Source: Loxodes magnus
Taxonomy: Eukaryota; Ciliophora; Karyorelictea; Loxodida; Loxodidae
Assembly: GCA_946699065.1 (NCBI GenBank)
Contig: CAMPDV010000114.1
Coordinates: 496,001 to 560,000 of the forward strand
Length of the DNA stretch: 64,000 nucleotides
Direction of reading: 5' to 3'
Position numbers and translations under genes: made by a program. Shown here piece after piece: positions 5,245 to 64,000 of this stretch (positions are counted from its first letter, which is position 1; every line of letters begins with the position of its first letter). Below the pieces are notes generated by a model. It ran no database searches and was not told the DNA's origin. It saw only the letters and a list, made by a program, of their open reading frames with translations.

Positions 5245-5762
5245 GGAAGTACAAACTTAAATCAAAAACTTAATTATATAGCTTATATTATTTGATTATC
5301 TCAATAATTGATATTCACTTAACTTCATAAGTCTTAAATTAAAGCTACCTTTAAATGACTAAATCAAATAGCTAAAGGCAGATAGATAATATTCTTCTAA
5401 GATAATCAATAATATCTAATTAAGAAGGTATCATATAAACTATCCAATTAGAAGTAATTTAATTTTATACCTATATTTTACTTATCTAAGCAGAAGCAAA
5501 TTTTGAATACCTAGTCGAAGTGCATGATCATTATCAATTACTTAAATAGACCAAATTAAACTAAGTTTACCTTTATTAAGTTAGATCTATAAAAGAAATA
5601 GAATACGATCATTACTGCTTATATTAGGGAACAAACTATTAGATATAGTAAATATATTTTCTACTTTAGTAGTTAATTTATTAAGGGTTAACTAGAAAAT
5701 TGAATAAAGGGATTAAACTATTTTCTCAAGTTTTGTTTTGAAGAGTTTAAAAATATAATTAA
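5245..5762. other. Unassigned spacer
   Basis: AT-rich spacer between two plus-strand genes. Nothing recognised. Confidence 0.4.
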
Positions 5763-6263
5763 ATGGGAATGAGCAGTAGTAATAGATAGAGTGGATTTTT
5801 TGATACTGTTAATGTTGAATTAAAGGACAACAGGAGATATGAACCTGATTGAAACCCTAAAGTTACAGAGGTTTGGCTTTTGACTCGCAAAATTGAGTAT
5901 GAAAAATTGCCTTTATTTGAACATTGAGCAGTACTTTTACAGCTGGATGAAGTGTATTATTGTATAGCACAGAAATAGGGAGAAGAAATAACACTTGACT
6001 TCTCCTTCAACAAAAATGAAATGATTCTGAAGACTTGAACTAAAAATTATAAAAACTGTATTTACATGTATAATCAAAGCAAATGTGACCTATAATGAGA
6101 TTAAGTGAAGTTTTATATAGAAATACAAAGTAGATAGTACAACGGTTTTAGCAATAACTGCCAACATTTCGCTAAGCAACTTATCACAGATTTAACTGGA
6201 GGTTTTAAAAAAGCCTTAGTAGGATCTGACTTCTCCTTTTCACCAGACAAACTTTTTGGTTGA
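5763..6263 (+). CDS. NC-domain (LRAT/H-rev107-like) papain-fold protein
   Basis: A 166-residue protein, ATG to TGA, with four internal TGA as Trp. Two blocks define it: FEHWAVLLQLDEVYY (about residues 59-73) holds the His of the NC/LRAT family HWA motif, and SNNCQHFAKQLITDL (about residues 131-145) holds the Cys of the NNC-x-HF motif. In the NlpC/P60-type circularly permuted papain fold these are the catalytic pair; family members are acyltransferases, phospholipases or thiol peptidases acting on lipids or proteins. There is no signal peptide or TM segment. The Cys box is the stronger match; the intervening strand sequence is divergent. A PPPDE-type peptidase is the main alternative. Confidence 0.6.
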
Positions 6264-6521
6264 TAATCATGTTCATATTCAAAAACTTTCTTAATCATTT
6301 GTTTAAAGAAAAACTTAAAATTCAATGAACATAAATAAAATTAAACTAGTAAAGTATAAATTCTTTTATAAGTATGAAAGTTTGAGTATTTAAACGCTTA
6401 GATAAGTCATATAATATGATATATACTCAATGATCATCATTATAATATAAAAGATCATTATAATGCTTGTTTAAACATATTTAAACTTTTTAAATTTTGT
6501 TGTCTTTTGTTTGTTAATGTA

Positions 6522-9500
6522 TCAAAAACTATCTCCCGTAGCAAGATACTTAAAGACTTCAGGAAGTTCTGTTATTAACTCAATAGGCAGATGTTTGAAT
6601 AAATTTCGAGCGTTTCAAATTTACTTCTTCATTTACTCAGCATATTTTAATCAAACAAGGACACCCAAAATCATAAAAATGGAGAACCACAGAGTGAAAT
6701 GTAAAGCAAATTTGTCCATATTATTTACAAAATCATCTATTTATTACTCAAGAGAAATACCGAACTACTAAATAATCTGAGTCACTCATCTGTTTAATTC
6801 TTCAAATTCATCAATTTTAGCATATTCACCATCTGCAATTTCGATAAATAAATCGGCAAGTCTTCTTTATCCAGCTTCATTACCTTTTGTTAAAACTCCT
6901 CCTCCTAATCTTTAGCACTAACTTAACTTCGCCTAGAAATCAGGAAAATCACAAGCATTTCCTTCGTAATAGTTACTATAAAACTCTATTACATAGTTTT
7001 CATATGTATTTTCATGATCATTATAGTAATCATGTGACTTCTATATGTTTTTACTTCAAGTCTAATCATACTACTAACTTAATTAGTCTACTCTTTAATT
7101 GAAAAAGAAGGAAGAAGAATTAAGCATCAGTTCTCTCAATATTGAAGATGAAGTCCTTGTATCCGAAAATAGACGATTAATTTGGGTCTATATTTTGATT
7201 CTATAGTAAAGCTATTTCAGTAGTTAACTGAAAACTTCATACGTTATAAATAAATAAAAAACGCAAATCAAACTAAATCCTATCATTAAGGCAAGGGTTC
7301 TTAAATGCTCTTTTAGAGGATCGCAAAATTTAGTTTTTAGCCTTCTTCTAGATAATCTATTTCCAGTCACTTTTTTTTGCATCCCTTTTTTATTTTAACC
7401 CTTTTCATTTTTTTTGTTTTTAACCTAAATTAAAGTGCTTTCACTTTAGTTAGCTTTTACATTTGTTTTATCTGCTTATCTTTCTGAAGTAAGCGAGCCA
7501 TCTATTATTTCCTTATCTTCTTTCGAAATTTCTTTGTCTGATTCTGATAGATTCTGCATTTCTTCTCCCTAAAAATTATCATTAGAAGTTTTATCACTTA
7601 GATGAGACTAAAGCATTTGAATCTTTTTTTTTCTGTTTATATTGAATATAATTTAGAAGGCTACAAACTCAGATTTTTTAATTCTATACATTACTTATAT
7701 TTCAATGGCAATGACAATTATGCAAAATAGAGAAGTGATGAATAGGAAAATTATTCCTGAGACTTATTAAGTTTTTTCATTTCTTTGTTGCTCATCATTT
7801 ATTTACTATTCTCATTTTTTATACTAATCTGATAAAAAGGGCATCATCACGTTGTATGACGTGTTTATTATCCAGTGCATCTCTTTATTGTCTAAACCCA
7901 TTTCTTAAAGTGAATCGTTATACTTCGCAAGAACATATGATATTAGAATATCGTTAGCTTAAAAAGTAGTTACTTCTATAAGTTAATTAGGATTGTGAGC
8001 ATCTGGTAAGGAAATACTGTGAAAACAAAAATCAAAGACGTTAGTTTTTAATTTTTACGGAAAAAACTCATCACATTAGATCTTGTCAATTAGAGATTAA
8101 ATATTCAAACCAGCTTGGTGTAACTTATTTCTTTGCTACTATTCAAATTAACTTCTAGTCAAGTTGGATATTATTCAAGTTGATGCAGCAAGAGAGTTAT
8201 TTGATAAGAGAGTGAGATATCTGGAATGTTTTCCAATGTCTCTCATAGAAACAAGAGTTTATGAAATATCTTTCTAATATTCCCAGAAGTTAATATTCTT
8301 ATCTCTTATAGTTATACAAATTAAAGTAAAAGCTATTTGACATGCTACAAAAACAATCGAAGCCAGTACCATTGTAATTCTTATCGCTTTAATTTCCTTA
8401 GGTACTTTCAATAACTTATGCTTTTTCAAATGTTACTTTAAGAAATTCGTTTTCTACCTAGAAGAAGAAATCAAACTCTACTATTAACCTTCAGATATAA
8501 GATTTTCTACATCTTCTTCAGTTTATGATACGTTATTCTTGGTAGATGAGGAATTAATAGAATCCCTGTTAGCTTTAACGATTTCAGAATTAATATTATC
8601 TTGTAGTGTTATTATATAATAGTTTAAATCAGAAATGGCTTTCTTTTCTATTGTTATCTACATAATTGTGGATACCATTTCAGTCAAACTTTAAATTATT
8701 TCTCCTTCATTCATATTTTAAAGTGCCTATAGCTTTTTTTATTCTATATCTTACTTATCTAATTATTGATTTAATCTGATAGACCTTGCTATACTAAAGC
8801 TTTGACTGCGAAAGCTCAAAGTATTATAAGATTTCGTACTACTGCAGATTGACATTTAGTTTTCAAGTTAATATTTTCTTTATATTAAAGGCTTAAATAT
8901 CCTCTTAAGCATGTGCTAATCTTTTGCGTATTTATCAACTATAAACTTTAAATTTTTAATTTCTTCTTCATCCTTCGGAATTATGACAGAAGTGTCAAAG
9001 AATCCAAAATAGTCGGTTAAACGTTTTTCGAATTCTGGAATTAGACATACTATGCTGACATTTGATGATTATATAAAAGAACTGACACTTTGTCCTAGCA
9101 TCTTTCTCATGTTATTGGATACTGTGTTTATGACTCTATTTTCATCTAATAAGATAAATCCTTTATTTGAGTCTTCCTTTTGAGCCTATATAATAGCAAC
9201 AAATTCGAATCCTTCATGAATTTCAGATGGCTGTAGATATACAAGCTTGCTAATAGGAAAAAGGAGACCTTCTTAATTTTGACCGAAGTGGTTTTATATT
9301 TTGCCTGAATACTATTAAGTTTCAATTACTTTTCTCAAGTTCACATCATGTTACTTAGCTATGAGTTTAGGCATCAAGATATTAATATGCTAGTTTACTA
9401 GCTAATTACTTTTAAATCCAAAAACCTTATCTACATTCTAAGAAACGTATAAAACCTAACCTAAGCTATTTTAATCAGCACTTACTCTAAATACAACAGT

Positions 9501-13380: not shown

Positions 13381-14397
13381 ATGAAGAATGTACATATGAT
13401 GAATAATCTAAGCTTTATTGTTTAAAGTACATCTAGGAAAGTAACTTAGATCTATTAATTTTATAATTCATTAAGCTATTTAGGATCATTATCCTTTATT
13501 ATATTATTCACTTAAGCGAAACGTGAGTTAGTTTAGATAAGTGAGCTTGAATGAACTATTATCTACCTTTGGTATGATTTTCATAATAATCATAGTTACT
13601 AAAATTAGTAAGGATATGTATTACTTATTTAAAGTACAAAATTTACTCAACTAGATTAGATAAAAATATATAAGAAAATATCTATTAATTTGCTAATTAT
13701 TTCTATTAATTAAGTTAAATACTCAGAGAAGCATCTGCATTAATATATCTCTAATGGTAGAAAGCTAATTAATATGTATTATGATAATATAACTTCTAAC
13801 TAGAAAATTTAAGTATCTATTCTAAAAGCTTGAGCTAATTTTTAATATTTGAGTTGCTATCTTATGAATTTTAATATCTCTATTGAATGCAAATTATTTA
13901 TGCTTTTGTAAATAGAAAAGTAAAAACTTTAAGAAGTTTACAATTAAATCTATTTTTTAAATTACTTAGTTTTTATCTCAGTTGAAATAATCAAGATTGA
14001 CAAAGAAATAGAATCCTTTATTTTAGTTAGAAATATAAAGAATTAATATCAGGATATTAGAAACTTTTTTAGGGATAGAAACTAAGATAATTGAGCTTGG
14101 TAAGTTTTTTAATTTTATAATTATCAATTCATTCTATATGGTGACTAAAGCTATCTTTATTCAAGGAATTCTAGTAGCGCTTTGCTAGATATATTTGCTT
14201 AATTTCCTTAAAACCAAAAAGTTATGAATCAAATTTTATTTCTAAAATATAAAGAATCAAAAAGAAGTAATTTCATTCCAATTAAATTTTGCAATGATAA
14301 TAAGCAAAATCTAATAATATTAAAGGCTAAAGACAATCTCTTAGATAAGTAATTTTTTTAACTTTTTTAAAGTAAAGCAAGATAAAAAAATGTTTGA
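13381..14397 (+). pseudogene. Possible gene or relic encoding helical/membrane-type protein
   Basis: A 339-codon frame, ATG to TGA, reading two internal TGA as Trp. Parts have protein-like composition (SELEWTIIYLWYDFHNNHSY; RNIKNQYQDIRNFFRDRNQDN). The run of amphipathic helices around an AW(A/T)NF-type motif is loosely reminiscent of the helical region of the TmcB-like family represented at 6522-11225, but I cannot align it securely. The rest is indistinguishable from translated AT-rich spacer, so a decayed or partial family member is as likely as a real gene. Confidence 0.25.
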
Positions 14398-14666
14398 TAT
14401 TCTTGGAATTATTTCTAGTTATATCTAACCGCCTCTAGATTACTCTAGAGACTAAATATAAAATTTATAAATCTCTAAAAGTCTTATTTTTACTTTGCAT
14501 ATGGTTCTTGATTTATTTTTTAGCATAAATAATGCTTGTTATCTTTTTTATGCTTATTTTTCCGAATTTTTTTGCAATATAATGATTCTCTTTATATTTT
14601 ATATATTTAAAGTTTTAGTTTTAGTTGATACTATCTCTTCTAATTAGTCTCCTTCTTCTAGTAGTA

Positions 14667-15176
14667 TCAATTCTCTTATTCGAAATTGTGAAAATTCTAG
14701 CATATTTTCAACTGATGTGTACGAGCATAACAATAATAGCAACTTTTCGTTTCTCGTTTAGGTTTAAATCCTGGGTTTTTTCTTTCAATTATCATTATAT
14801 CATTTCCTTAATCTCTTAGTTCCATATAATGCTGCATTTTTAGCTGCTTTTCATTTTTTTCTATCCTTCTGTCTTGCTCTTTTGCTTCGATTGAAAGTTT
14901 CTAGAATGGCTGTTCCTTGTTGCGAATATTTAAGAAGGCGATAAGGTTTCTTTCTTAGATCATAAGTTTAATTCTATTTCCTCTGCTATTCAAGTTTTTA
15001 CCAGTAGTTTTTATCTTTCTTCAACTTTTTACTTCTTCCTTTATTCAAGAACAAAAATCAGCTAATCACTTCATACTTTTTTTCTTGAGCATGAAATCAG
15101 ATACTTCTGATATGCTAATAGGAACTAAATGATGCTTAGGATGATTTACAGAGTTAATACCTTTTTAGGTTAGCAT
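14667..15176 (-). CDS. CCHC zinc-knuckle protein, gag-like
   Basis: A 169-residue protein. After a Lys/Arg/Glu-rich helical N-terminal region with TGA-encoded Trp (MKWLADFCSWIKEEVKSW), it ends with a canonical zinc knuckle, CYYCYARTHQLKIC (C-x2-C-x4-H-x4-C), as in retroelement Gag/nucleocapsid and some RNA-binding proteins. I take the TGA at 14667-14669 as the stop because the sequence beyond it turns into low-complexity AT-rich DNA; the frame could be read on to 14229. The gene diverges from the otubain-type gene at 15717. It resembles the decayed zinc-knuckle ORF inside the insertion at 17490-18223 in having one C-terminal knuckle in a charged helical protein. A domesticated or residual retroelement Gag is possible but unproven. 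Confidence 0.5.
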
Positions 15177-15716
15177 TTAGTTTTACTTAGCAATATAAAA
15201 TCAAAGATTACCTAGGATTTGAAATAATTAAAGGGTTTTGAAAGTTTATGGAAATGTTTCCTATTAAAATGCAACCTTGCACTAACTTAGTATAGGATAA
15301 GACATTTGATATATATTCTTTACCCATAATTTAAAGCTTTTAAGTTAACAATAGATTAGATAATTAAAAATAATTGAAGAAGCTATCATTATTATAAAGC
15401 ATCCTAATAAAAGCTTTTGTATTAACTTATGCATAATCAGTAAAAGGAATTATAAAATACGAAAGTATATGAATTAAAAGAAAATAACAAACAATTAAAT
15501 TGTAGATATTCAATCATTTTGATAACTAATTTAAGTTTATCAACTATCTAGAACATAAAGCTATGCTAGCACTAAGTAATAAAGTATTTTTGATTTAATT
15601 TTAATATAATTAGTGAATAAAGCTGAAAGTAAATTATCTAATTTTTATACTTTAAAATAAAGAATTAAATTTATTTATATAATTAAATCTTTAAATTATA
15701 TTAAAATTTACTTAAA
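15177..15716. other. Divergent intergenic region
   Basis: A 540-bp AT-rich region between the zinc-knuckle gene (minus) and the RING-otubain gene (plus). It must hold both promoters, but no motif is recognised. Homology to the second otubain copy stops at its right end, 3 bases before the ATG. Confidence 0.45.
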
Positions 15717-18700
15717 ATGCAACCAGGAGGGTAATGAATGCAATAGAGTTCTTAAATAAAATGTATCAAATGTAGTTAGAAGCCAGTCTATGAAAAATAA
15801 TACCAGCCATGTAATCACTTCCTTTGTGTGGATTGCTGAAGAAAGTATTGAACACTTCTTCATTAAAAAGATAAAACATTAGATTTCAAAGTGTTCTAAT
15901 GTCCAGGTTGCAAGTAATAAAGTATCATTAATGATAAATAGTTACTACAAATCTTAAATAACAATTAAGTTCCTTAGTCTTCTTAAACTTAACCTTAAAT
16001 TTAATAGTAGAACTTTTAACAATTTTAAGCTCAAAACTAATAAACTGCTGGATAAAATACTTAATAAAGATAGATAGAAGAGTAAGTTAACTAAACTAGT
16101 TATTGCTTAGATTGTAAAAATAAAGAAATAGCAATCAAATAATTGGAAACATAAAAAGACTAGCAGAAATAGTAAAATCTAAGCTTATTAACTAAAATTA
16201 AAGAATAAAACTCAGTTATTACAGGTCTTTAAAATTAGTTAAACAAGAAAACAATAAATTAAAATGTAGGACAGTAAAATGAAAGTATATAGTCTAATAT
16301 CTAGTAAGCTAATTAAAATTAAAATTAATTATTAAATTAATTAGTTAATAAATAATCAGGAACTTAATAAACATCATAGTCATAAAATAAGCAAGTAGTT
16401 AAATTACCAAATTAAAGTAGAAATTAATCAAATTAGAAATAAGAAAATTTAACAGAAAAATAAAAAAAATCTTATTCTGCTTTAGAAAATGAAGATAATG
16501 ACTAAATATTTTAAATGGAAGTAGAAAAATTATCAAAAGAATAAGAAGTATAAGATTAATTAGACTTATAAAATACTAAAAGAAAATTAAAAATTTCAAG
16601 TGAGGAAAATGCATCTATGAAGCAATAAATTTGAGAACTGTAAGAAAAAATTGCAAGTTTTTAAAATGAATAAAGCCAAATTGAAAATAAAAGCAAACAA
16701 ACCTCAGATGAATATATAGAGCAATTAAAGCAAAATGATTGCTTGCAAGTACAAATATAATAGTTAAAAAAATAATTATAAGAACTTTAATCAAATAACT
16801 AAAATAATGAAGAGCTTTAAAAATAGCTTTAGTTATAATAAAGGTAATTAGAAAGCAAAGATAGAAAAATAAATGATATAAAAGAAAATTTTAAATTATG
16901 AGAAGACAGGTTGGCTAAAGAAAGTGAAAAACTTGAAAATTAAGTAAAGGAATTATAATCAAAAAATGCGCAACTAACACAATTGAATATAGAAGTATAA
17001 TAAAAATATGAATGCGAATAAGAGTACTTTAAAAAAATAGAAATAGAAAGAAACTAATTTTAGTAGCAAATTTCATAATTAAATTAAAAATTATCCTAAG
17101 ATTAAAGTAACTTCAATGAGTAACACAATAATATGAATAATTTACTAAAAGATGAATAATAAAAAAATTTAGAATTGCATTAATAAATATAAAGATTAAA
17201 ATAATTAATTAAAAATATAGAATAAAGCACTAAATTATAACTAGAATAAAAAGAAAGTGAAATAACCTACAGTGAATAAACATTAACTAGCTAAAATTAA
17301 CAACAAACTATATAAATTAGTTAATTATAAAATGAAAATTTATAGCAAAAGTAGTAATTAGAAGCTATCACTAAAGAATTAGAAAGTCTTAAGGCTTAAT
17401 TACAAGATTAATAAAATAAAATGGACTAGAAAACCTCTTAATATTAAATCTAAGTTAAATTAAACGAGACTAATACAAAATATTATTAATTAATTTTAAC
17501 TATAAGGGTTAGAGTCATCTTTAATTAGAGGAAATGTTTCCTCAAATTAAAGGCAATAAAAGTTTTTATATTCGTACTCAATTGTACATGTCTTCATCTG
17601 AATCAATTTCAAACTGAGATAATTCTTCTTTCTCTTCAATAAGCTCATAGAATTGTTCTTCCATCTTCTTGTAATTTTTCTCCAGCTTCTCTAAACAAAT
17701 TCTAAGGTCATTGTTATCCTTTTAAAGCTATTTATTCTGTTACTGTTAATTACCAAGATCTTGTTTGATTAGTGTCACACTTGAATCATCTAATATCAGC
17801 TTCTTTCTGTAAATACCTCCAAAGTAGTTACAATATAGCCTCCTAGATGTTCCAAATTATTTACGGTGCTGCTCAAGCACTCTTCTTCACTTCGGACATT
17901 ACCTCCAAAATGTCCAGCCTTTTGACAACAATAGCAACGTTTTATTAAGGGCTTGAATTAAAATTTTTATTCTGTTTACATTTTTTCAATTAATGAATAA
18001 AGCTAAATAATGTCTTGCTCGTGGGGTTTCTCAAGCTTTTTCAGTTTGCTAGGAAATTCCGTATTTCCCAATCCTTAACAGGAGTAGATTTATCTTTTTT
18101 GAATTCTTGGTTCTTGCTAGTTAACTGAGACTTAAGATTGATCTTTAAGGTTAGAATTCAAGGTTTAGATTCCCGGGTTTTTTTCTATTTTTTTCTATGA
18201 TATATTATACAAAATATTATTAAGATTAAATTAAAATGTAATAAGATTAGCATTAGCAATAGATTAGTGAGCTAAATAATAAAATTTAATAAGAAATACA
18301 AAAACATTAAGAAATTTAATAAACTCTCATATCTGCTGAAGCAGAAAAAGAAAGTATATAAGCTTAGTTATATTAAATAAGAAGTAATATATATTAGGAG
18401 TCAAGTTAAAGAGAAAACAAAGACTAAAAATTAAAAAAATCTGCTTATTAGAGCAATAAAAGAAATAAATACAAAAATAATTAAATAGAAAATTAAAACC
18501 TTTAAATTACAAGTATCATGTAATAATAAGAACAAAATAAATTAAATTATTTATAAATCGAAACTTTAAATCAATAACTTGACTAAAAAGATAACTAAAT
18601 TAGTAACTTAACTAATCAAATTCAAAATGACAAAACTTAAATTGAAATTGAGAAATAATCTATTTAAAGAAATATTGAAGAAGGCAAAAAAAGATTAATA

Positions 18701-20773
18701 TAGCAAAGTTAATCCTTTATTACTAACAAGATAAATGAGCAATAAATTTAATTTAATTAATAAATAGAAATCCAAAAATAAAGCATAAGCAATTTAGAAA
18801 ACTAAAATAAAGTAGTATAAAATTAGCTTTAAACTACATAAGAGTAGTTAAAAGAAAAAGAAAGCTAAATAAATTTACTAGTTTTAAAAAAGTAAGAAAA
18901 GGATTAAGAAATCTATAATTTAATATCTTAAAATAGTTTATTAAAGTAAGATATTTTAAATTATTAGCAAAAATTCTAAGAATATGAAAATTAAATTAGA
19001 TAAAAAGAAGCATAAATAGTTTCTCTTCAAATTGATATTAAGAAACTATAGTAAGAAACTAATGAAAGATAAAACTAACCAAATAATTTTGTGTAATAGC
19101 AATATCAGTAACAGTTAAGTTAGTAGCAAAATTTAATACCTGGAAACAATTAGAATTAAAATTAAATAATCCAATAGCAGCATCAAAATCAACTTAATTA
19201 AGGTATTTTGAGTAATCAACCAAATGTTGGTAGCAATATTCAATATTATAGTTAGTAACCTGGAGTTCAAAACAGGTAAAATATGTAAAACTAAAACACA
19301 TAAAGCATTTAACCTTTAGTATCCTCAAAGAGTGATCCTGTCATTATTCCTTAGTAAATGAATCTTTAATAAGTTTATCCTCGTAAAGCTATCTCTAAGT
19401 TAAAGGAAGAGTACAAGCATAATGCAAATATTTAAAAAATAATTGAAGAATTAAGTGAAAAATACAACTGTTATAGAAATATTAGAGGGGATGGAAATTG
19501 CTATTTCAGAGCAGTTGGATTTTCATTTTTAGAACATTTGTGCAGAATTACTACTCCCATTTAACATATGGAAGATTTTATAAACAAAATAGAAAGTTAA
19601 AGAGGATACTATTAGTTGAGAGAAAGCTCTAAACTAGGATTCTAAAATGTTAGTCATAATTTGAGATAAATATTCTTGCAGTTTATGTATAGCTTAAGAG
19701 CTTTGAAAAGGTAAAATAATAAAGATATATTTTATCATTTACTTTAAGAACTTCAAGGTAATAAAGACAACCAAGATGAAGCACTTATATGGTAAATGCG
19801 ATGTCTAACAGCAAACTATTTAGAATCTCATAGGGATTATTTTGAAACATTCAATTAAATTTCTTATGAATAGCTTATTTAAAATGTTCTTACAATGGGA
19901 AAGGAAGCTGATGGTATAGTAATTGGCTCCCTTTAAGTAGTGCTAAAAGTTTAAATTTAAATAATAAGTATTGATAGAAACTATAGTCAAGCTATTTCAT
20001 TTGATCAAATGAAAATAGCAGGAAAATGCCCTTTAATTTATTTATTATACAAGCCAGGTCACTATGATATTATTTATTCAAAAGATTAAGCAAATGCAGA
20101 TGGTTTCAATTCTATTACTGAATAATTTGTCTAAAATATAATTCTTCCTAAAGACTATTAAATAAAAAATCTAGATAAGCCTTTCTTCATATTTATAAAA
20201 CCAAAAGGGTAAGAAAGTCCTTCAGAAGAGTTCAAAATATTTTAAATATAGTTTGATTTTCCTTATATAAGTACTTAATAAACTTCATATATCAAATAAA
20301 ATGAAATAGAAATGCAAAATAAGATATAAACCTAAAAAATAGCAGAAGTACCTAAGTTTTAAAAATGTGAAATATGCTAGGTAGAGATCGAGTTATAATC
20401 TTGCATTCGCTTATAATGTAATCATATTTTTTGTTATTTCTGCTTATAAGATAGCATCGATCAGTAAACTGGAAGCTAAATAATTCCTAAGTAGCCAGGA
20501 TCAAAAAGAGCAAGCTGTATAAAATGTAATCACATTATTATTAATGAAGAATTATAAAAAATAGTAGGGAAAGAGAAGTTTGAGAAAGCTATACGGATCA
20601 AACTTTAATAACAATAAATATTATCAAACTAATATCTAGTTTTAATGAATAAAGAATCAAATTTTAAAATTTCTGTTTTATAATCAAATTACATAACTTT
20701 ACCAAAAAATATTTCTTTATTTTAATTCTAAAGACTTAAAATTCCTCAATATGATACAGCTGATTCTTTATGA
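15717..20773 (+). CDS. RING - Gln-rich coiled coil - otubain (OTU) - RING protein, copy A, interrupted by a 734-bp insertion
   Basis: Removing bases 17490-18223 leaves a perfect 1441-codon frame ending in TGA. Domains: N-terminal C3HC4 RING (residues about 12-60: CIKC, PCNHFLCVDC, CPGC); about 900 residues of Gln-rich coiled coil written mostly with TAA/TAG; an otubain-type OTU protease (about 985-1240) with RGDGNCYFRAVGFSFLEHL carrying Asp and Cys, and KPGHYDIIY carrying the His, matching peptidase family C65; then a second RING-like finger (about 1306-1365: CEICQVEIELQSC, CNHIFCYFC, CIKCNH). An E3-type module and a deubiquitinase on one chain suggest ubiquitin-chain editing (inference). As it stands the gene is broken: the insertion shifts the frame and contains in-frame TGA. 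Compared with copy B (41267-46459) this copy also lacks about 540 bp of coiled coil, an in-frame deletion near 17268. It keeps its own 3' end. Confidence 0.85.
17473..17489 (+). repeat. Left 17-bp direct repeat flanking the insertion
   Basis: ATACAAAATATTATTAA occurs here and at 18207-18223, and only once at the uninterrupted site in copy B (near 44155), as expected of a target-site duplication or of the junction repeat of a precisely excised element. Confidence 0.9.
17520..17551. repeat. Hairpin at the insertion end
   Basis: Two 15-base arms (TTTAATTAGAGGAAA and TTTCCTCAAATTAAA) separated by TG pair with a single mismatch. It lies just past the stop codon of the minus-strand ORF in the insertion, so it would be in that transcript's 3' UTR. 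Confidence 0.7.
17578..18178 (-). pseudogene. Decayed gag-like zinc-knuckle ORF inside the insertion
   Basis: Reading left along the minus strand, three segments in different frames make one protein: a charged segment around FKKDKSTPVKDWE, then FPSKLKKLEKPHEQDI through RCYCCQKAGHFGG, then CPKWRRVLEQHRKQFG through a clean acidic coiled-coil C terminus (EEQFYELIEEKEELSQFE) ending in TGA at 17578-17580. Joining the second and third segments gives a C-x2-C-x4-H-x4-C knuckle, so one base appears lost right inside the finger. A second frame break lies near 18055. Known analogues are retroelement Gag zinc knuckles. With two frame breaks and no visible start it is most likely a pseudogene. Confidence 0.55.
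18207..18223 (+). repeat. Right 17-bp direct repeat flanking the insertion
   Basis: Identical to 17473-17489. From its end the otubain gene resumes in the same frame as in copy B. Confidence 0.9.
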
Positions 20774-39035: not shown

Positions 39036-41427
39036 TCAGCTTAAACTTCTGTTTGGCATTGGATTACTTGGCAATATAAATCCAACTGATCTCTCTTTCT
39101 TTTTTATTTTCTCTTTCAGTGAAAGAAAACCTTTCTTTTCTTATTTTTTGAGCTTTTTTAGATCATAATCATCCTCTTCTTAAAAGAGTTAGATATTTTT
39201 AACAGTTTCCAAAAATTCTATATTTCTCTGTACTTCATTTTCTGATCTGACAGCTCCAAGATCTTTAGCATCAGATAAATTTTAGATTGCTTTAATTGCC
39301 ATAATTTATTTCTTTTTTATTTTGCTAGAGTATTAATGCTATTTCATAAACCCTCGCATTTTGCTTTTCATTGCTTACTCTATTTCTTTCTATTTAAATG
39401 ATTCTTTTTCTTCCTTTTGGTTTTTATACATATGAATAACTTAGCTTGGATCTGTTTCAAGAGCATAAATTGTTAAGCCACAGTAAGAATTTTATTTTAC
39501 TCCTCCCATTAATATTAATTTAGAGCCTAAAACTCCCATACATGCATTTCAACGTCCAGATGGAATTTATCCATAAGCATTTACTTTTTCTCAAACTCAA
39601 GTTTTAATATTAAATGCATGAATTGATGCTAACGCTTCTTGCTAGAGATCACTACCTCTACCTCCATAAATCATAAGATATCCACCATGAAAAATAGCAC
39701 AGTGACCATATCTTGGACTAGGTGGTTAACCATTACCTTTAATTAATTTTCAAAGAATCAGATATTCTTTTCCTTTTTCTTCGGATTCCTTTGCAATAAT
39801 GAGTCATAAATCATTGTTAGGTTCTGTTTTGTTGCAACCTCCAAACATATAAACACCTGTTCTTTCGGAATCATATTCAGCATTTTTCATTTATCTTGGT
39901 ATTTAGAAAATATTAAAGTTGGTTTATTTCAATGTTCATGAGTCAAATACTGCGGTCATTGTCATAGAATGCAATTTCTAGGGCTATCTCTTAGTCTCTA
40001 TTATTCTTGGCTATCACATTCTTTTAAGATCTAAATCTAAAATATAAAAATCTCCAAGTAGCGTTGAGTTAGAATCAAATCCGCCATAAATAATCATTGA
40101 ATTCCCAACTACTGCAGAAGCATGATTTCTTCTTCCTGCTACTCTTGCTCCAAAATTATAGAAGCTACTCCATTTCTCCGTAACTATATAAATAATTACT
40201 AAGATCAAACATTCATATTTTCCTTCCACATCTCCTTTTTCCATACTTATAATTTGAAAACCCTCCATATATTATCATATACTAATTTCATACTTCAGCA
40301 GAATGTCCATATCTTCCTTTAGGTTTTAATTAGCAATCAATATTTTTCCATTCCCAATTATACTAACTTAATACTCTTAAATCGTTCTACTTACCTAAAC
40401 CCCCAAAACCTCCAAAAGAATATAAATGATTTAAATAATATTTAAGTGTCATACCTTCTCTAGCCTCAGGCATATGGCCTATTGTTTTAAGTTAATGCCA
40501 AAAGAGATGAAGGCCTATTTGCTTTGGCTATTATTAGAAAAGTTTGCTCCTTGGCTTAGTTTTTTATTACAATGAAAGAATACCAGCTGCTAGTTTCTAA
40601 GATTTCTTTTCTAGCTTTACATCTGGAAACATATCAATCATTTAATCCATCATCGTTTTTTCATCAGAAGATGCTCTTTTATCTCATTCTTCTTTACCCT
40701 TTTATTAATTTTTTGTTGGCATTTAGATGCATGGATTTTAAAATTAAATTCGAACGTTTTCCTTTTACTTGATACTGTTATACTAAAAAGGAGCAACTCC
40801 TGGAGATGTAGTTAATTGATAGGTTTGCTATTTATACTTATAAAAATCCTAGTCAGTTAATGTATCAATTTTCTTAAAAATCGAATTGTACATTTCAGTA
40901 AATTAGTCTATGCATCAGCTTAATTACTTTCGCTTTCTTTTAACTTTGCTATTTAATACAGGCTTTGAATTATCATCATTGTCTCAAATTACACCTTTAT
41001 AAGTTTGAACCATTTGCTATATTGCAAATTAAGCAGGAATGGAAAAATTAACGATAGGATTTTCACCTGACCAACTACTTTAATTTTCTTAATTAGTAGA
41101 CATTTTAGAGTTATCCTCTTAAAAAACGAGATCATTCATAAATCCAGTTGCCTAAGGTTTAAAAAATTTATAATTCTGAGTTAAAGGAGATTAAGAAGCA
41201 GAAAATCTATCAGTAGAATTATATAGCAAATTAGATCTTTTTTAATAAGAGGACTAGTTAACCTGTTCAGATAACTAATTTAAGTTGCTTTCTTGGTCTT
41301 ATCATTTCTATTATTTCTCTTTATATTAAAGAATACTTATTTGCTTCACCTTTAGTTAATTCCTAGTCTATTTCTCTTCTCCTATATTACTTTTTTGCAG
41401 ATCTAGCTCTGATTTAGTTTTTTTCAT
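39036..41427 (-). CDS. Six-blade Kelch propeller protein with one 16-nt intron
   Basis: Exons 40200-41427 and 39036-40183 (792 codons, TGA stop). An N-terminal 320 residues are Ser/Gln/Lys-rich and mostly disordered. Six Kelch blades follow (about 330-640), each with the GG pair: LYSFGGFGGLG, MIIYGGF, MIIYGGFDSNSTLLGDFYIL, VYMFGGCNKTEPNNDLW, LMIYGGRGSDLQQEAL and LILMGGVKQNSYCGL. A Lys-rich coiled-coil tail (ENEVQRNIEFLETVKNIQLF) closes the protein. Without the intron the fourth strand set falls out of frame. Kelch propellers bind proteins, often as scaffold or E3 adaptor; no BTB domain is seen. The start region overlaps, in another frame, the unterminated frame of otubain copy B. Confidence 0.85.
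40184..40199 (-). other. 16-nt intron
   Basis: On the minus strand GTAATTATTTATATAG. Removal converts MFDLSNYLYSYGE into MFDLITEKWSSF and keeps the Kelch repeats in frame. Confidence 0.85.
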
Positions 41428-44400
41428 AAATTAATCTTTCTGAATAAAATTATTTAATCGAGTAATATTTCAAACTATTGAATGACTATATAAATATAGT
41501 TGAGAATGATGCTCTCTAATTATGACCTATTTGCTTTTTTACTTGGATATTATAATTAAACCTATATAATTTAAATATTTAGTATATTATTTATCTCAAG
41601 CTTGCTAGTTAAGAAAATTAGTATATATAATTAATGTTAAACAATGGAAGCTAATTAAAAGCTAAAATTAAAGATTGTTAGAATACTTATAAAGAATGTT
41701 TGATTGCTTAAGCTAAGATTATTTAAATTAAGCTTGATAATATTTATTGTTATTAAAGTTAGCTCCGTATAGCTTTCTCAAACTTCTCTTTCCCTACTAT
41801 TTTTTATAATTCTTCATTAGTAATAATGTAATTACATTTTATACAGCTTGCTCTTTTTGATCCTGGCTACTTAGGAATTATTTAGCTTCCAGTTTACTGA
41901 TCGATGCTATCTTATAAGCAGAAAAAACAAAAAATATGATTACATTATAAGCGAATGCAAGATTATAACTCGATCTCTACCTAACATATTTCACATTTTT
42001 AAAACTTAGGTACTTCTTCTATTTTTTAGGTTTATATCTTATTTTGCATTTCTATTTCATTTTATTTGATATATGAAGTTTATTAAGTACTTATATAAGG
42101 AAAATCAAACTATATTTAAAATATTTTGAACTCTTCTGAAGGACTTTCTTACCCTTTTGGTTCTATAAATATGAAGAAAGGCTTATCTGGATTTTCTATT
42201 TAATAGTCTTTAGGAAGAATTATATTTTAGACAAATTATTCAGTAATAGAATCGAAACCATCTGCATTTGCTTAATCTTTTGAATAAATAATATCATAGT
42301 GACCTGGCTTGTATAATACATAAATTAAAGGGCATTTTCCTGCTATTTTCATTTGATCAAATGAAATAGCTTGACTATAGTTTCTATCAATACTTATTAT
42401 TTAAATTTAAACTTTTAGAACTACTTAAAGGGGGCCAATTACTATACCATCAGCTTCCTTTCCCATTGTAAGAACATTTTAAATAAGCTATTCATAAGAA
42501 ATTTAATTGAATGGTTCAAAATAATCCCTATGAGATTCTAAATAGTTTGCTGTTAGACATCGCATTTACCATATAAGTGCTTCATCTTGGTTGTCTTTAT
42601 TACCTTGAAGTTCTTAAAGTAAATGATAAAATATATCTTTATTATTTTACCTTTTCAAAACTCTTAAGCTATACATAAACTGCAAGAATATTTATCTTAA
42701 ATTATGACTAACATTTTAGAATCCTAGTTTAGAGCTTTCTCTCAACTAATAGTATCCTCTTTAACTTTCTATTTTGTTTATAAAATCTTCCATATGTTAA
42801 ATGGGAGTAGTAATTCTGCACAAATGTTCTAAAAATGAAAATCCAACTGCTCTGAAATAGCAATTTCCATCCCCTCTAATATTTCTATAACAGTTGTATT
42901 TTTCACTTAATTCTTCAATTATTTTTTAAATATTTGCATTATGCTTGTACTCTTCCTTTAACTTAGAGATAGCTTTACGAGGATAAACTTATTAAAGATT
43001 CATTTACTAAGGAATAATGACAGGATCACTCTTTGATGATACTAAAGGTTAAATGCTTTATGTGTTTTAGTTTTACATATTTTACCTGTTTTGAACTCCA
43101 GGTTACTAACTATAATATTGAATATTGCTACCAACATTTGGTTGATTACTCAAAATGCCTTAATTAAGTTGATTTTGATGCTGCTATTGGATTATTTAAT
43201 TTTAATTCTAATTGTTTCCAGGTATTAAATTTTGCTACTAACTTAACTGTTACTGATATTGCTATTACACAAAATTATTTGGTTAGTTTTATCTTTCATT
43301 AGTTTCTTACTATAGTTTCTTAATATCAATTTGAAGAGAAACTATTTATGCTTCTTTTTATCTAATTTAATTTTCATATTCTTAGAATTTTTGCTAATAA
43401 TTTAAAATATCTTACTTTAATAAACTATTTTAAGATATTAAATTATAGATTTCTTAATCCTTTTCTTACTTTTTTAAAACTAGTAAATTTATTTAGCTTT
43501 CTTTTTCTTTTAACTACTCTTATGTAGTTTAAAGCTAATTTTATGCTACTTTATTTTAGTTTTCTAAATTGCTTATGCTTTATTTTTGGATTTCTATTTA
43601 TTAATTAAATTAAATTTATTGCTCATTTATCTTGTTAGTAATAAAGGATTAACTTTGCTATATTAATTTTTTTTTGCCTTCTTCAAAATTTCTTTAAATA
43701 GATTATTTCTCAATTTCAATTTAAGTTTTGTCATTTTGAATTTGATTAGTTAAGTTACTAATTTAGTTATCTTTTTAGTCAAGTTATTGATTTAAAGTTT
43801 CGATTTATAAATAATTTAATTTATTTTGTTCTTATTATTACATGATACTTGTAATTTAAAGGTTTTAATTTTCTATTTAATTATTTTAAATTTCTAATGA
43901 AGTTTACATTTGTTTCTTTTCTTGCTCTAATTAGTTTATTTATTGGATATACTTATCTATAATTTCTCTTTAAGTTTACTCCTATTATAAATTATCTCTC
44001 ATTTATAGTAATTAACTTTATAAGTCTTGATTTTAATTTTCTGCCTTTTTGAGATTTTCTTAGTTTTGCTAATATTCTTATAAAATTTTATTATTTAGCT
44101 CACTAATCTATTGCTAATGCTAATCTTATTACATTTTAATTTAATCTTAATAATATTTTGTATTAGTCTCATTTAATTTAACTTAGATTTAATATTAAGA
44201 GGCTTGCTAGTCCATTTTATTTAATTAATCTTGTAATTAAGCATTAAGACTTTCTAATTCTTTAGTGATAGTTTCTAATTACTACTTTTGCTATAAATTT
44301 TCATTTTATAATTAATTAATTTATGTAGTTTGTTGTTCACTTTAGCAAGTTAATGTTTATTCACTGTACTAATTATCTTAAGTTAATTGTGATTATTAGT

Positions 44401-46459
44401 TTACTAAACTATCTTCCTCAGTTTTATTTTTTAAAGTTTACTATAAATCTGCATTTTTATTTTGCTCTTCAAGTAGTTGATAGTTTAACTAAGAGATTAA
44501 TGATTCAAATTATTGTTTCTGTTATTGTATGATATTTATCTCTTAAGTTTAATCTTATAGTTATTTTTGTAATTTTTAATTGCTTTAATCTAAGTTTTCT
44601 ACGACAAGTTACTGCTTATTTGTTTATTCTTCTAATTCTTAGTTATTTTTCTTTATTTATTCAAGTTGCTATTATAATTATAGCTTTTCACTTTCTAAAG
44701 CAGAAATATTTTAAGCGTATTGAGTTGTCTATTGCTAGAGGTCATTTAGTGGTATAATATCTTGCTAAGTTATACTATTGCTTTATATTTACTAAATTAA
44801 TTAATTATTTTAGTCTTATATATTTTAAATAGTTTACTAAGCTTATTCATATTTCTATTGTTCTTACTAATAATCTTCTTAAATCTTACTTAATTATGTT
44901 TTCCACTAGGCTATTTCACTTTCTTTTTATTCTAGTTATAATTTAGCGCTCCGTTCTATATTTTTAATTAATTAATTTAATCTTTATATTTCTTAATGCT
45001 ATTCTAAGTTTTTTTATTATTCATCTTTTAGTAAATTATTCATATTATTGTGTTACTCATTGAAGTTACTTTAATCTTAGGATAATTTTTAATTTAATTA
45101 TGAAATTTGCTACTAAAATTAGTTTCTTTCTATTTCTATTTTTTTAAAGTACTATTATTCGCATTCATATTTTTATTATACTTCTATATTCAATTGTGTT
45201 AGTTGCGCATTTTTTGATTATAATTCCTTTACTTAATTTTCAAGTTTTTCACTTTCTTTAGTCAACCTGTCTTCTCATAATTTAAAATTTTCTTTTATAT
45301 CATTTATTTTTCTATCTTTGCTTTCTAATTGCCTTTATTATAACTAAAGCTATTTTTAAAGCTCTTCATTATTTTAGTTATTTGATTAAAGTTCTTATAA
45401 CTATTTTTTTAACTATTATATTTGTACTTGCAAGCAATCATTTTGCTTTAATTGCTCTATATATTCATCTGAGGTTTGTTTGATTTTATTTTCAATTTGG
45501 CTTTATTCATTTTAAAAACTTGCAATTTTTTCTTACAGTTCTCAAATTTATTGCTTCATAGATGCATTTTCCTCGCTTGAAATTTTTAATTGTCTTTTAG
45601 TATTTTATAAGTCTAATTAATCTTATACTTCTTATTCTTTTGATAATTTTTCTACTTCCATTTAAAATATTTAGTCATTATCTTCATTTTCTAAAGCAGA
45701 ATAAATTGTTTTTTATTTTTCTGTAAAATTTTCTTATTTCTAATTTGATTAATTTCTACTTTAATTTGGTAATTTAACTACTTGCTTATTTTATGACTAT
45801 GATGATTATTAAGTTCCTGATTATTTATTAACTAATTAATTTAATAATTAATTTTAATTTTAATTAGCTTACTAGATATTAGAGTATATATTTTCATTTT
45901 ACTGTCCTACATTTTAATTTATTGTTTTCTTGTTTAACTAATTTTAAAGACCTGTAATAACTGAGTTTTATTCTTTAATTTTAGTTAATAAGCTTAGATT
46001 TTACTATTTCTACTAGTCTTTTTATGTTTCCAATTATTTGATTGATATTTCTTTATTTTTACAATCTTAGCAATAACTAGTTTAGTTAACTTACTCTTTT
46101 ATCTATCTTTATTAAGTATTTTATCCAGCAGTTTATTAGTTTTGAGCTTAAAATTGTTAAAAGTTCTACTATTAAATTTAAGGTTAAGTTTAAGAAGACT
46201 AAGGAACTTAATTGTTATTTAAGATTTGTAGTAACTATTTATCATTAATGATATTTTATTACTTGCAACCTGGACATTAGAACACTTTCTAATCTAATGT
46301 TTTATCTTTTTAATGAAGAAGTGTTCAATGTTTTTTTCAGCAATCCACACAAAGGAAGTGATTACATGGCTGGTATTATTTTTCATAGACTGGCTTCTAA
46401 CCACATTTGATACATTTTATTTAAGAACTCTATTGCATTCATTACCCTCCTGGTTGCAT
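41267..46459 (-). CDS. RING - coiled coil - otubain - RING protein, copy B, without its own stop
   Basis: Second copy of the gene at 15717-20773, inverted. It starts MQPGGQWMQQ (TGA=Trp) with the same N-terminal RING (CIKCGQKPVYEKQ, PCNHFLCVDC, CPGC), has an uninterrupted and about 180 residues longer Gln-rich coiled coil, the OTU domain (GDGNCYFRA near 42880, KPGHYDIIY near 42310) and the C-terminal RING. Homology to copy A ends near 41720, about 45 codons before copy A's TGA. From there the frame runs on without TGA until 41267-41269, inside the Kelch gene on the same strand. So the native 3' end was not duplicated, or was lost. It lacks the 734-bp insertion of copy A. Either this product carries a random tail, or the gene is dead, or an unseen intron supplies a stop. 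Confidence 0.75.
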
Positions 46460-46462
46460 TTT
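41720..46462 (-). repeat. Arm B of the 4.7-kb inverted duplication
   Basis: Reverse complement of 15714-20640. About 21 kb of unique DNA separates the arms. Extra sequence relative to arm A lies at about 44372-44907; the 734-bp insertion of arm A is absent here. Confidence 0.9.
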
Positions 46463-46548
46463 ATTATTTTATTGAAAAAAGCGATGCCTATATAGCTTAC
46501 TCTTTAAATATAATTTAACAAAAATAAACATTCTTAATACTCTAGATT

Positions 46549-48895: not shown

Positions 48896-49435
<540 letters not shown>

Positions 49436-50040
49436 TAGAGAAATGCTATACTAAACTTAATTTTATTTAGTTAATATTCAAAGAGATTGAATATCTATTA
49501 CAAAGATATGATATTTGACTGTTTATAAAATAAAAGAATACAAAGATAAATAATTATTATTAATAAAGGAATACTAAAAGTATTATCAAGCTATTATAGT
49601 ATTCTAACCTCTATTAATCATAGAGGTATAATATACATTAGTGTGTAATCTACTTAATTAGCTTTATTTATTTCTATAAGTATTATACTTATATTTTTAA
49701 ATATTTAAGATTGCTATCTTAGTTAAGGTATAATGAAGAAAGAAAGGCTATAATATTAAAAGGCTTATAAATATAATAATTAAGTTGCTAATTAGAAAGC
49801 TACTAGAAGGTTATGATAATTAATTTGTAATTAAATGTCTTTATTATTAAATGAGATCTGTTACTATTGAAACTTAATAATAGATTTAAGACATAAAGGG
49901 ATCAAATTTTCAATTTATAAAGGAGTTAAGCTGAACTAAGTTTTTTTTAATAATTAAAGTTTCAACTGTTGTTTTTGCTAATTATTTTAAGAAAGTAATA
50001 TGTTAAATCAAAAAGATCTAGTGATTTACTATAAATAAGT
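49436..50040. other. Arf downstream region
   Basis: Duplicated in part at 63380-63826. No gene recognised apart from the hairpin noted separately. Confidence 0.4.
49607..49627. repeat. Hairpin in the Arf 3' region
   Basis: ACCTCTAT-TAATC-ATAGAGGT forms a perfect 8-bp stem with a 5-base loop, 170 bp after the Arf stop. It is preserved in the second Arf copy. Confidence 0.7.
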
Positions 50041-63077: not shown

Positions 63078-63379
63078 TTTTAATAATCTTGTCTATACCT
63101 TTATTTTAAAATTTAAATTAGCAAGTTAAATACAACTCTCTAACATCTATTTATTTAACGAAATATTATAAGAAAGGTTTACTCTTGATATTTAAAGGTT
63201 TAGTATTAAATAAGTATAGGAAAGAAAACATTAAATGAGATAGTCATAAAAGATAACGTTAAATTATGACAATTAATTAGATTTACTTAATTTAAGTTTT
63301 TTAATTCCAAGCCTTATCTACTATCACTCTTTAAATACTACCCTCCTTTATTTTTATAATCAAACTTATCTTACTTTAT
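63078..63379. other. Rer1 upstream region
   Basis: AT-rich sequence between the Rer1 start and the edge of the Arf duplication. Nothing recognised. Confidence 0.4.
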
Positions 63380-64000
63380 ATAAATTGAATATTTGATCCC
63401 TTTATGTCTTAAATCTATTATTAAGTTTTAATAGTAACAGATCTCATTTAATAATAAAGACATTTAATTACAAATTAATTATCATAACCTTCTAGTAGCT
63501 TTCTAATTAGCAACTTAATTATAATATTTATAAGCCTTTTAATATTATAGCCTTTCTTTCTTCATTACATCTTAAGTAATACTTATAGAAATAAATAAAG
63601 CTAATTAAGTAGATTACACACTAATGTATATTATACCTCTATGATTAATAGAGGTTAGAATACTATAATAGCTTGATAATACTTTTAGTATTCCTTTATT
63701 AATAATAATTATTTATCTTTGTATTCTTTTATTTTATAAACAGTCAAATATCATATCTTTGTAATAGATATTCAATCTCTTTGAATATTAACTAAATAAA
63801 ATTAAGTTTAGTATAGCATTTCTCTATCATTTTGCAATTGTTTTTACTAACCAGTCTAATCCTTCATATAGCCCTTTTTCTTTAATAGCACAAGCAGCTT
63901 AAATGTGCCAAGGTCTATCTTTTATTTACTACAATTGCATTTATTCAGTTATCTCATCTATAGTCATTGCATTAGGTAAATCTTGCTTGTTTGCTAAAAT
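63380..64000 (-). repeat. Inverted duplication including Arf 3' end, arm B
   Basis: Reverse complement of about 49262-49919, with the same 8-bp hairpin. It has a short deletion near 63560 compared with arm A. It continues beyond the window. Confidence 0.9.
63827..64000 (-). CDS. ARF1: Arf family GTPase, second copy, 3' part only
   Basis: The C-terminal 57 residues plus TGA of a second Arf gene, cut by the window edge. It holds [35 protein letters not shown] and the same C terminus as the gene at 48896-49435. In the visible overlap I see one coding difference (Phe to Leu just before ANKQD). Expression and completeness cannot be judged here. Confidence 0.9.

Follow-up and report, generated by a model that had tools for sequence, protein, structure and literature searches.

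An apparently dead copy of a short, very probably non-autonomous non-LTR retroposon family inside a gene of the ciliate Loxodes magnus

Introduction

The half-L1 elements (HAL1) of mammals are non-autonomous non-LTR elements that encode an ORF1-type protein only (PMC5753468). The element described here, which we interpret as a retroposon, is alike in being non-autonomous and non-LTR and in having an ORF1-type protein as its sole product, with no reverse transcriptase (RT). However, its protein is a CCHC knuckle protein, its tail is (TTAA)n, its host is a ciliate and its 5' untranslated region is no more than a few A, and pieces of three LINE copies of the genome showed no DNA homology to it beyond short matches. 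SINEs are similarly short and non-autonomous, with target-site duplications and tail repeats, whereas the present element carries a 283-codon open reading frame (ORF) and gives no Rfam or tRNA match. There is also a resemblance to ciliate IESs, which in Paramecium and Tetrahymena are inserts in genes between direct repeats, as is the sequence studied here. However, the repeats of the element are site-specific duplications, 12-21 bp long where called, and its family is retained in an assembly that we take to be macronuclear.

LINEs of 5-6 kb with RT and endonuclease have been described from L. magnus itself (rnd-1_family-27 and -19; PMC11441545). One LINE family of this genome shares the (TTAA)n tail of our element and another has a knuckle in its ORF1 region, but the element possesses neither the RT nor the endonuclease of rnd-1_family-27 and -19. 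The term 'non-autonomous' is absent from the main text of the Loxodes paper (PMC11441545), and our literature searches found no paper on zinc-knuckle ciliate non-LTR retrotransposons, on Loxodes SINEs and LINEs, or on nonautonomous gag-like zinc-knuckle ORF1 elements with LINEs.

Here we report that an insert in a gene of L. magnus, suspected in a preliminary description of being a frame-killing sequence that removes itself, is very probably an ordinary retroposon insertion, namely a dead member of a family of short non-LTR retroposons that are non-autonomous and encode one gag/ORF1-like protein but no enzyme. The name that suits the element best is ORF1-only (HAL1-like), non-autonomous non-LTR retroposon. 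Its family is a new case of this kind, to which HAL1 is the nearest known name. It is common in the genome and is probably a little-described passenger of larger retrotransposons. The retroposon reading fits the published view that Loxodes is without classical IESs and carries mobile elements in its soma (PMC11441545).

Results and Discussion

The insertion site and the two host gene copies

The window (the whole 64,000-nt stretch of L. magnus DNA analyzed here) contains a near-identical inverted gene pair, 15713-20630 on the plus strand and 41731-46463 on the minus strand, lying 21 kb apart and matching in four blocks of 92-99% identity. An otubain (Peptidase_C65) domain is present in both copies, in copy A downstream of the insert. 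The foreign DNA sits in one of the two, copy A, where an exact 17-bp direct repeat (ATACAAAATATTATTAA) occurs twice at an offset of 734 (Table 1). The preliminary description had reported a 734-bp element flanked by this repeat; the repeat is indeed exact, but the 734 bp include one copy of it, and the foreign DNA proper is 717 bp. Its GC content is 0.308, compared with 0.195 in the flanks. Copy B, proposed earlier as the empty site, does align through the site on the minus strand, with one 17-mer and without the insert. The repeat of the window copy scores 17, and none of 506 mismatched pairs of 5' and 3' flanks from the family reached 15. It represents the duplicated target of this particular insertion and is not an excision signal.

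We also searched the assembly with 461 bases of copy B spanning the site. Identity above 76% was found only with copy B itself (100%) and, in copy A, with the sequence on either side of the insert (93% and 79%), and the remaining 21 of the 24 matches had 68-76% identity. The empty copy B is a diverged paralogue, neither an excised molecule nor the same locus.

The claim that removal of the insert restores a 1441-codon frame holds under one reading of the code. With the insert skipped and the frame taken from 15714 (codon AAA; the nearest in-frame ATG is at 15717), a TGA is reached at codon 1441, but only if five earlier in-frame TGAs, at codons 7, 41, 45, 306 and 395 and identical in copy B, are taken as sense; when every TGA counts as a stop, joining the flanks leaves 1045 codons open. 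If the insert is retained, TGAs next occur at codons 684, 760 and 804, in a shifted frame. The frame of copy B, which also has extra sequence, reaches codon 1731. In the window TAA and TAG are used as sense codons and in-frame TGAs are conserved between both gene copies, as expected for translation table 27, which is given for Loxodes (PMC11441545).

The window holds a second inverted repeat pair, 49262-49919 and 63379-64000, which is 97-100% complementary and reaches the window end; six translations tried from this pair gave no Pfam match.

Table 1. Positions of the features in the window
Feature	Position	Strand	Basis
Host gene copy A (frame as counted in the preliminary description), otubain (Peptidase_C65) domain 3' of the insert	15714..20773	+	Repeat blocks, frame count, domain match
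Host gene copy B, empty site	41267..46462	-	Repeat blocks, alignment, domain match, frame count
Target-site duplication, first copy (plus-strand order)	17473..17489	.	Exact 17-bp repeat; single in empty copy B
Target-site duplication, second copy	18207..18223	.	Exact 17-bp repeat; single in empty copy B
Sole occurrence of the 17-mer in copy B, at the site without an insert	44147..44163	-	Repeat blocks and alignment of the copies
Very probable retroposon copy, 717 bp; 5' end on the 18206 side, 3' end at 17490	17490..18206	- (sense)	Multi-copy family; ends from 40 copies
Twelve extra nt separating the A-rich 5' start from the target-site duplication; variable in sequence and length among other copies	18195..18206	-	Copy comparison
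Position of the ORF start codon: ATA here, ATG in 53 of 71 independent copies	18186..18188	-	Copy comparison
Junction of the 241-nt internal deletion	17972..18003	-	Imperfect direct repeat AATTGAGAAAATG / AATTGAAAAAATG in complete copies; junction 32-mer
Zinc-knuckle coding stretch (CX2CX4HX4C in complete copies), 1-nt deletion in a T run	17896..17936	-	Copy comparison
TGA closing the ORF (...SDEDMYN*)	17578..17580	-	Copy comparison
3' hairpin of the element RNA (predicted)	17515..17556	-	Fold of the corresponding stretch of L040
Conserved 3' end CTAACCCTTATAGTTAAAATTAA preceding the (TTAA)n tail	17490..17512	-	442 exact copies in the assembly

Copy number and age of the family

The assembly that we searched comprises 705,730,643 bases in 7,843 contigs and is presumed to be the L. 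magnus macronuclear assembly, for which 706 Mbp is reported (PMC11441545). A DNA search with the insert gave 79 matching pieces when the best 40 of 1,487 candidates were scored, corresponding to the whole window copy and 39 other places. At these other places, bases 1-502 (in one case from base 2) were matched at 97-98% and matching resumed from base 481 or 491, with approximately 220 bases in between. This split shows that the other members are longer and that the window copy is without a piece. Indeed, among the 40 best copies 39 are complete, and a deletion (241 nt) is found in the window copy alone. This set, being the best-scoring, is biased towards likeness to the window copy. A second set of 60 copies was hand-picked from the first 100 of 442 matches to the 3' end; because the first 20 of them have no exact 5' 25-mer among the listed matches nearby, it leans to altered 5' ends.

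Exact matches in the assembly numbered 227 for the 5' 25-mer and 442 for the 3' 23-mer, both of which are lower bounds for the family size. The 71 independent copies are 93-99% like the majority base (98.6% for the window copy), and the nearest relative of the window copy within this set shows 98.1% identity. The same 5' start and 3' end recur in 39 copies of the first set of 40 and in 50 of the second set of 60. Where the flanks differ, likeness between copies extends over approximately 950-1030 bases and then stops. At about 2100-2833 of locus L058 there is an 83% relic of the same family, with the same 5' start and with the 3' end absent; its shared start suggests that the lineage may predate the present burst.

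Structure and protein of the complete element

Complete members are approximately 945 bp long. Read on what is the minus strand of the window, they consist of a short A run, ATGGAAAAAAACCCGGGAATC..., a 283-codon ORF whose ATG lies near the 5' end, an approximately 85-nt 3' untranslated region with a hairpin, CTAACCCTTATAGTTAAAATTAA and a (TTAA)n tail. The hairpin was predicted from a 121-nt stretch of L040 (minimum free energy -21.6 kcal/mol, z -2.29, with 6 of 200 shuffles as good). The ORF fills the element, encodes no RT and leaves no room for one. Its protein contains CYCCQKAGHFWRQC, a CX2CX4HX4C motif that we take to be a zinc knuckle. Pfam gave no match to the knuckle at E 1, and the word 'gag-like' refers to the motif; the best PDB match of the knuckle was a retroviral nucleocapsid (E 0.15, residues 165-183). 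By eye, the N- and C-terminal parts of the protein are coiled-coil-like, and the Pfam coiled coil APG6_N was matched at E 0.0011, below its cut-off. A PHROGs search found nothing.

An indel-free ORF is present in 19 of the 71 independent copies, 17 of which keep the knuckle, and the ATG is kept in 53 of the 71. In 14 of the 19 there is one in-frame TGA, read as W. We also analyzed synonymous excess in the ORF. In the 40-copy set the p-values were 0.03 for private and 0.40 for shared variants; in the 71-copy set they were 0.33 for variants in 1 copy, 0.29 in 2 copies, 0.011 in 3-5 copies, 0.07 in at least 3 and 0.49 in at least 6. The excess is weak and confined to individual frequency classes.

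The zinc-knuckle relic noted in the preliminary description is found on the minus strand of the window copy as CYCCQKAGHF, followed by a 1-nt deletion relative to complete copies, so that 'relic' is an apt word. In complete copies, the imperfect repeat of Table 1 stands at both edges of the 241-nt piece that the window copy has lost. The 32-mer across the deletion junction occurs once in the assembly, with at most one mismatch allowed; therefore, the deletion belongs to the window copy or to a lineage not otherwise seen. Judged from its sequence, the window copy is dead, with ATA for its start codon, the internal deletion and a frameshift in the knuckle. Given that it is a deletion derivative, the 734-bp length is no property of the element.

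Duplications, tails and truncations

Target-site duplications, a variable tail and 5' truncation are marks of the target-primed reverse transcription of LINEs and their passengers. The 40 copies fall into 23 distinct flank groups, and a flanking repeat scoring at least 12 was found in 17 of the 23, compared with 3 of 506 mismatched-group pairs. In the second sample, which was chosen by an exact 3' end, 33 of 48 groups reached this score, with called duplications 12-19 bp long, whereas 35 of 873 mismatched pairs did so; a score of at least 10 was reached in 39 of 48 against 105 of 873. No duplication scoring at least 12 was found in 6 of the 23 and 15 of the 48 groups. Over both samples the called duplications measure 12-21 bp, and their sequence differs per site. 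From the terminal AATTAA to the called duplication there are 2-25 nt, mostly TTAA repeats, and the tail length varies; the tail of L012, TAAAAAAAA, is unlike the usual (TTAA)n. On the other side, 0 to approximately 40 extra AT-rich bases, which differ per copy, lie between the duplication and the 5' start (12 in the window copy).

Of the 60 copies selected by their 3' end, 50 align in full as a single block. L054 carries an internal gap, L056 is interrupted, and L062, L074, L088, L094 and L097-L100 are 5'-truncated. Duplications accompany the truncation in L088 (18 bp, 1 mismatch) and L097-L100 (12-17 bp), the latter probably being one insertion duplicated together with its surroundings; in L062, L074 and L094 the flanking repeat has 5-6 bases at most. 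The priming site is AT-rich, often with TTAA: this tetranucleotide occurs near the duplication start in 28 of 43 cases, compared with 341 of 1420 control windows, with duplication calling itself favouring TTAA. The constant 3' end, variable tail, site-specific duplications and 5' truncation are marks of target-primed reverse transcription.

A candidate source of the enzyme

Since no RT is encoded, the element is probably mobilized in trans. We propose that its RNA would be copied in trans by a LINE-encoded endonuclease/RT, with target priming at an AT-rich site within the host gene, and that repair of the staggered nicks would have produced the 17-bp duplication. The most plausible source of the enzyme would be a LINE family whose own 3' end is likewise (TTAA)n.

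A search of the assembly for RVT_1 gave 150 scored places out of 3,403 candidates, and pieces of three LINE copies (C614, C117 and C321) were read for comparison. LINE A (C614; L101, L102) and the LINE of C117 (L104) end in (TTTA)n, and the ORF1 region of LINE A holds a CX2CX4HX4C knuckle in a frame other than the longest there. In LINE B (C321; L103), the (TTAA)n end lies near base 516: of its 40 scored copies, 24 break off at 514-518, and the remaining 16 continue to base 900 and thus share flanks. The LINE B 3' end has 45 exact copies in the assembly. Among the scored matches, six of these ends (C321, C473, C2272, C333 twice and C83) are preceded on their own strand by an RVT_1 match 1.48-1.49 kb upstream, which ties the (TTAA)n end to the LINE. 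Comparison of the element with the three LINE 3' regions gave nothing beyond short matches (best E 0.014) and the tail unit, and a protein comparison of the 283-aa ORF with one LINE ORF1 region gave E 0.14. From its tail type, LINE B would be the best candidate partner. At C5131 and C20:2028-7877, RT matches are spaced regularly by 2,532 bases, and in part of C5131 also by 2,504, a pattern resembling that of a LINE piece repeated in tandem.

Alternative explanations

The preliminary description left open whether the insert was a new non-autonomous element or an IES-like sequence. A germline-limited sequence precisely excised between direct repeats during macronuclear development would account for the flanking repeat, the coding location and the frame that is restored on skipping the insert, and it would suit the ciliate code. 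However, hundreds of copies are retained in the assembly that we take as macronuclear, the repeats differ per site with no boundary motif such as TA or TTAA conserved everywhere, and copy B is a diverged paralogue at a different locus. Classical IESs are moreover reported as undetected in L. magnus (PMC11441545). We consider an IES very improbable; of the two early proposals, the one that stands is the non-autonomous element, together with its flanking repeat and gag-like knuckle. The genome-wide search with comparison of flanks that had been suggested as a check gave hundreds of copies, and the duplications called in the sampled copies differ per site. Assembly chimerism at 17490 or 18223 has the least to recommend it. 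Although misassembly of low-complexity repeats has been described for this genome (PMC11441545), both junctions fall where other copies place the ends of the element, and the duplicated sequence agrees with that of the empty paralogue.

Two other explanations share an RNA-mediated origin with the retroposon family and are not exclusive of its mechanism. If the insert were not a member of a separate family but a piece of a long autonomous element (LINE or LTR), either internal or 5'-truncated, the gag-like protein and the marks of target-primed reverse transcription would also be accounted for, and a LINE ORF1 region in the same genome does have a CX2CX4HX4C knuckle. The common 5' start and 3' end in 39 of 40 and 50 of 60 copies, the loss of likeness after approximately 950-1030 bases and DNA homology to the LINE pieces read that is limited to short matches make this unlikely. 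Slightly less likely still is a processed-pseudogene family of a host zinc-knuckle protein gene, which would leave RNA-mediated marks and a single ORF without an enzyme; its tail, however, is mostly (TTAA)n instead of poly(A), a 945-bp unit exists in hundreds of copies, the older 83% relic has the same 5' start, and related knuckle stretches occur in other repeats. We therefore strongly favour the non-autonomous retroposon family. As earlier claimed, terminal inverted repeats are lacking: by eye, neither these nor LTRs were seen at the ends of 40 family copies, and an LTR element was rejected on the latter ground. A SINE was likewise rejected: Rfam gave nothing at E 0.1 for 3 loci, ARAGORN predicted no tRNA in the 6 loci examined, and a 283-codon ORF is present.

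Other knuckle families in the genome

In 130,820 nt around element copies (L041-L060), the knuckle pattern occurred six times, compared with 0 in each of 20 Markov rounds. Five of the six stretches are not of the window's type (L050, L051 twice, L056 and L058), and the sixth presumably lies in the split window-family copy of L056. There, an element of another family (5592-6959; 1,368 nt, of which 1,352 were examined) is nested in the window-family copy. The nested element has an ORF and a knuckle of its own and ends in AATTG repeats. It is flanked on each side by bases 877-893 of the host element, 13 of them exact at the junctions. Further knuckle stretches were found in L074, L062 and L012. 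The types represented by L037, L056, L051/L074 and L062/L012 share a motif like LYxNxxGxIYKxK outside the knuckle, which stretches from L050, L102 and window position 14741 fit poorly. Because the nine-sequence alignment was selected by the knuckle itself, its invariant C and H prove nothing, and the flanking motif alone is independent. When the assembly was searched for zf-CCHC, 33 matches were obtained among 150 scored of 4473 candidates, and 25 of the 33 lie in five multi-knuckle clusters.

A tentative reading, to which we give somewhat less than an even chance, is that Loxodes carries a superfamily of gag-only short retroposons. Its several families would show no detectable similarity in DNA sequence and would differ in tail ((TTAA)n or AATTG repeats) and in length (approximately 0.95 and 1.37 kb). 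Their proteins would have a coiled-coil-like part and CX2CX4HX4C, followed in four types by [LM][YW]...G.[IV]YK downstream. These could be long-lived, protein-carrying LINE parasites, each adapted to a LINE with its own tail and tolerated as this ciliate does not edit its genome. If this speculation is true, ciliates too have gag-only retroposons, of which HAL1 is the mammalian example, and these persist with a protein of their own; it can then be asked whether selection keeps a protein in an element that borrows its enzyme.

Another CX2CX4HX4C stretch, CYYCYARTHQLKIC, lies in the window itself at 14741 on the minus strand (ORF 14257-14784), with 0 found in each of 20 Markov-resampled windows; it may be an older relative. 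In L074, an 83% stretch like the 3' part of the window family follows downstream of the ORF of another knuckle family on the same strand, possibly as a template-switch chimera. In L062, an 89% window-family stretch lies on the strand opposite the ORF of the other family.
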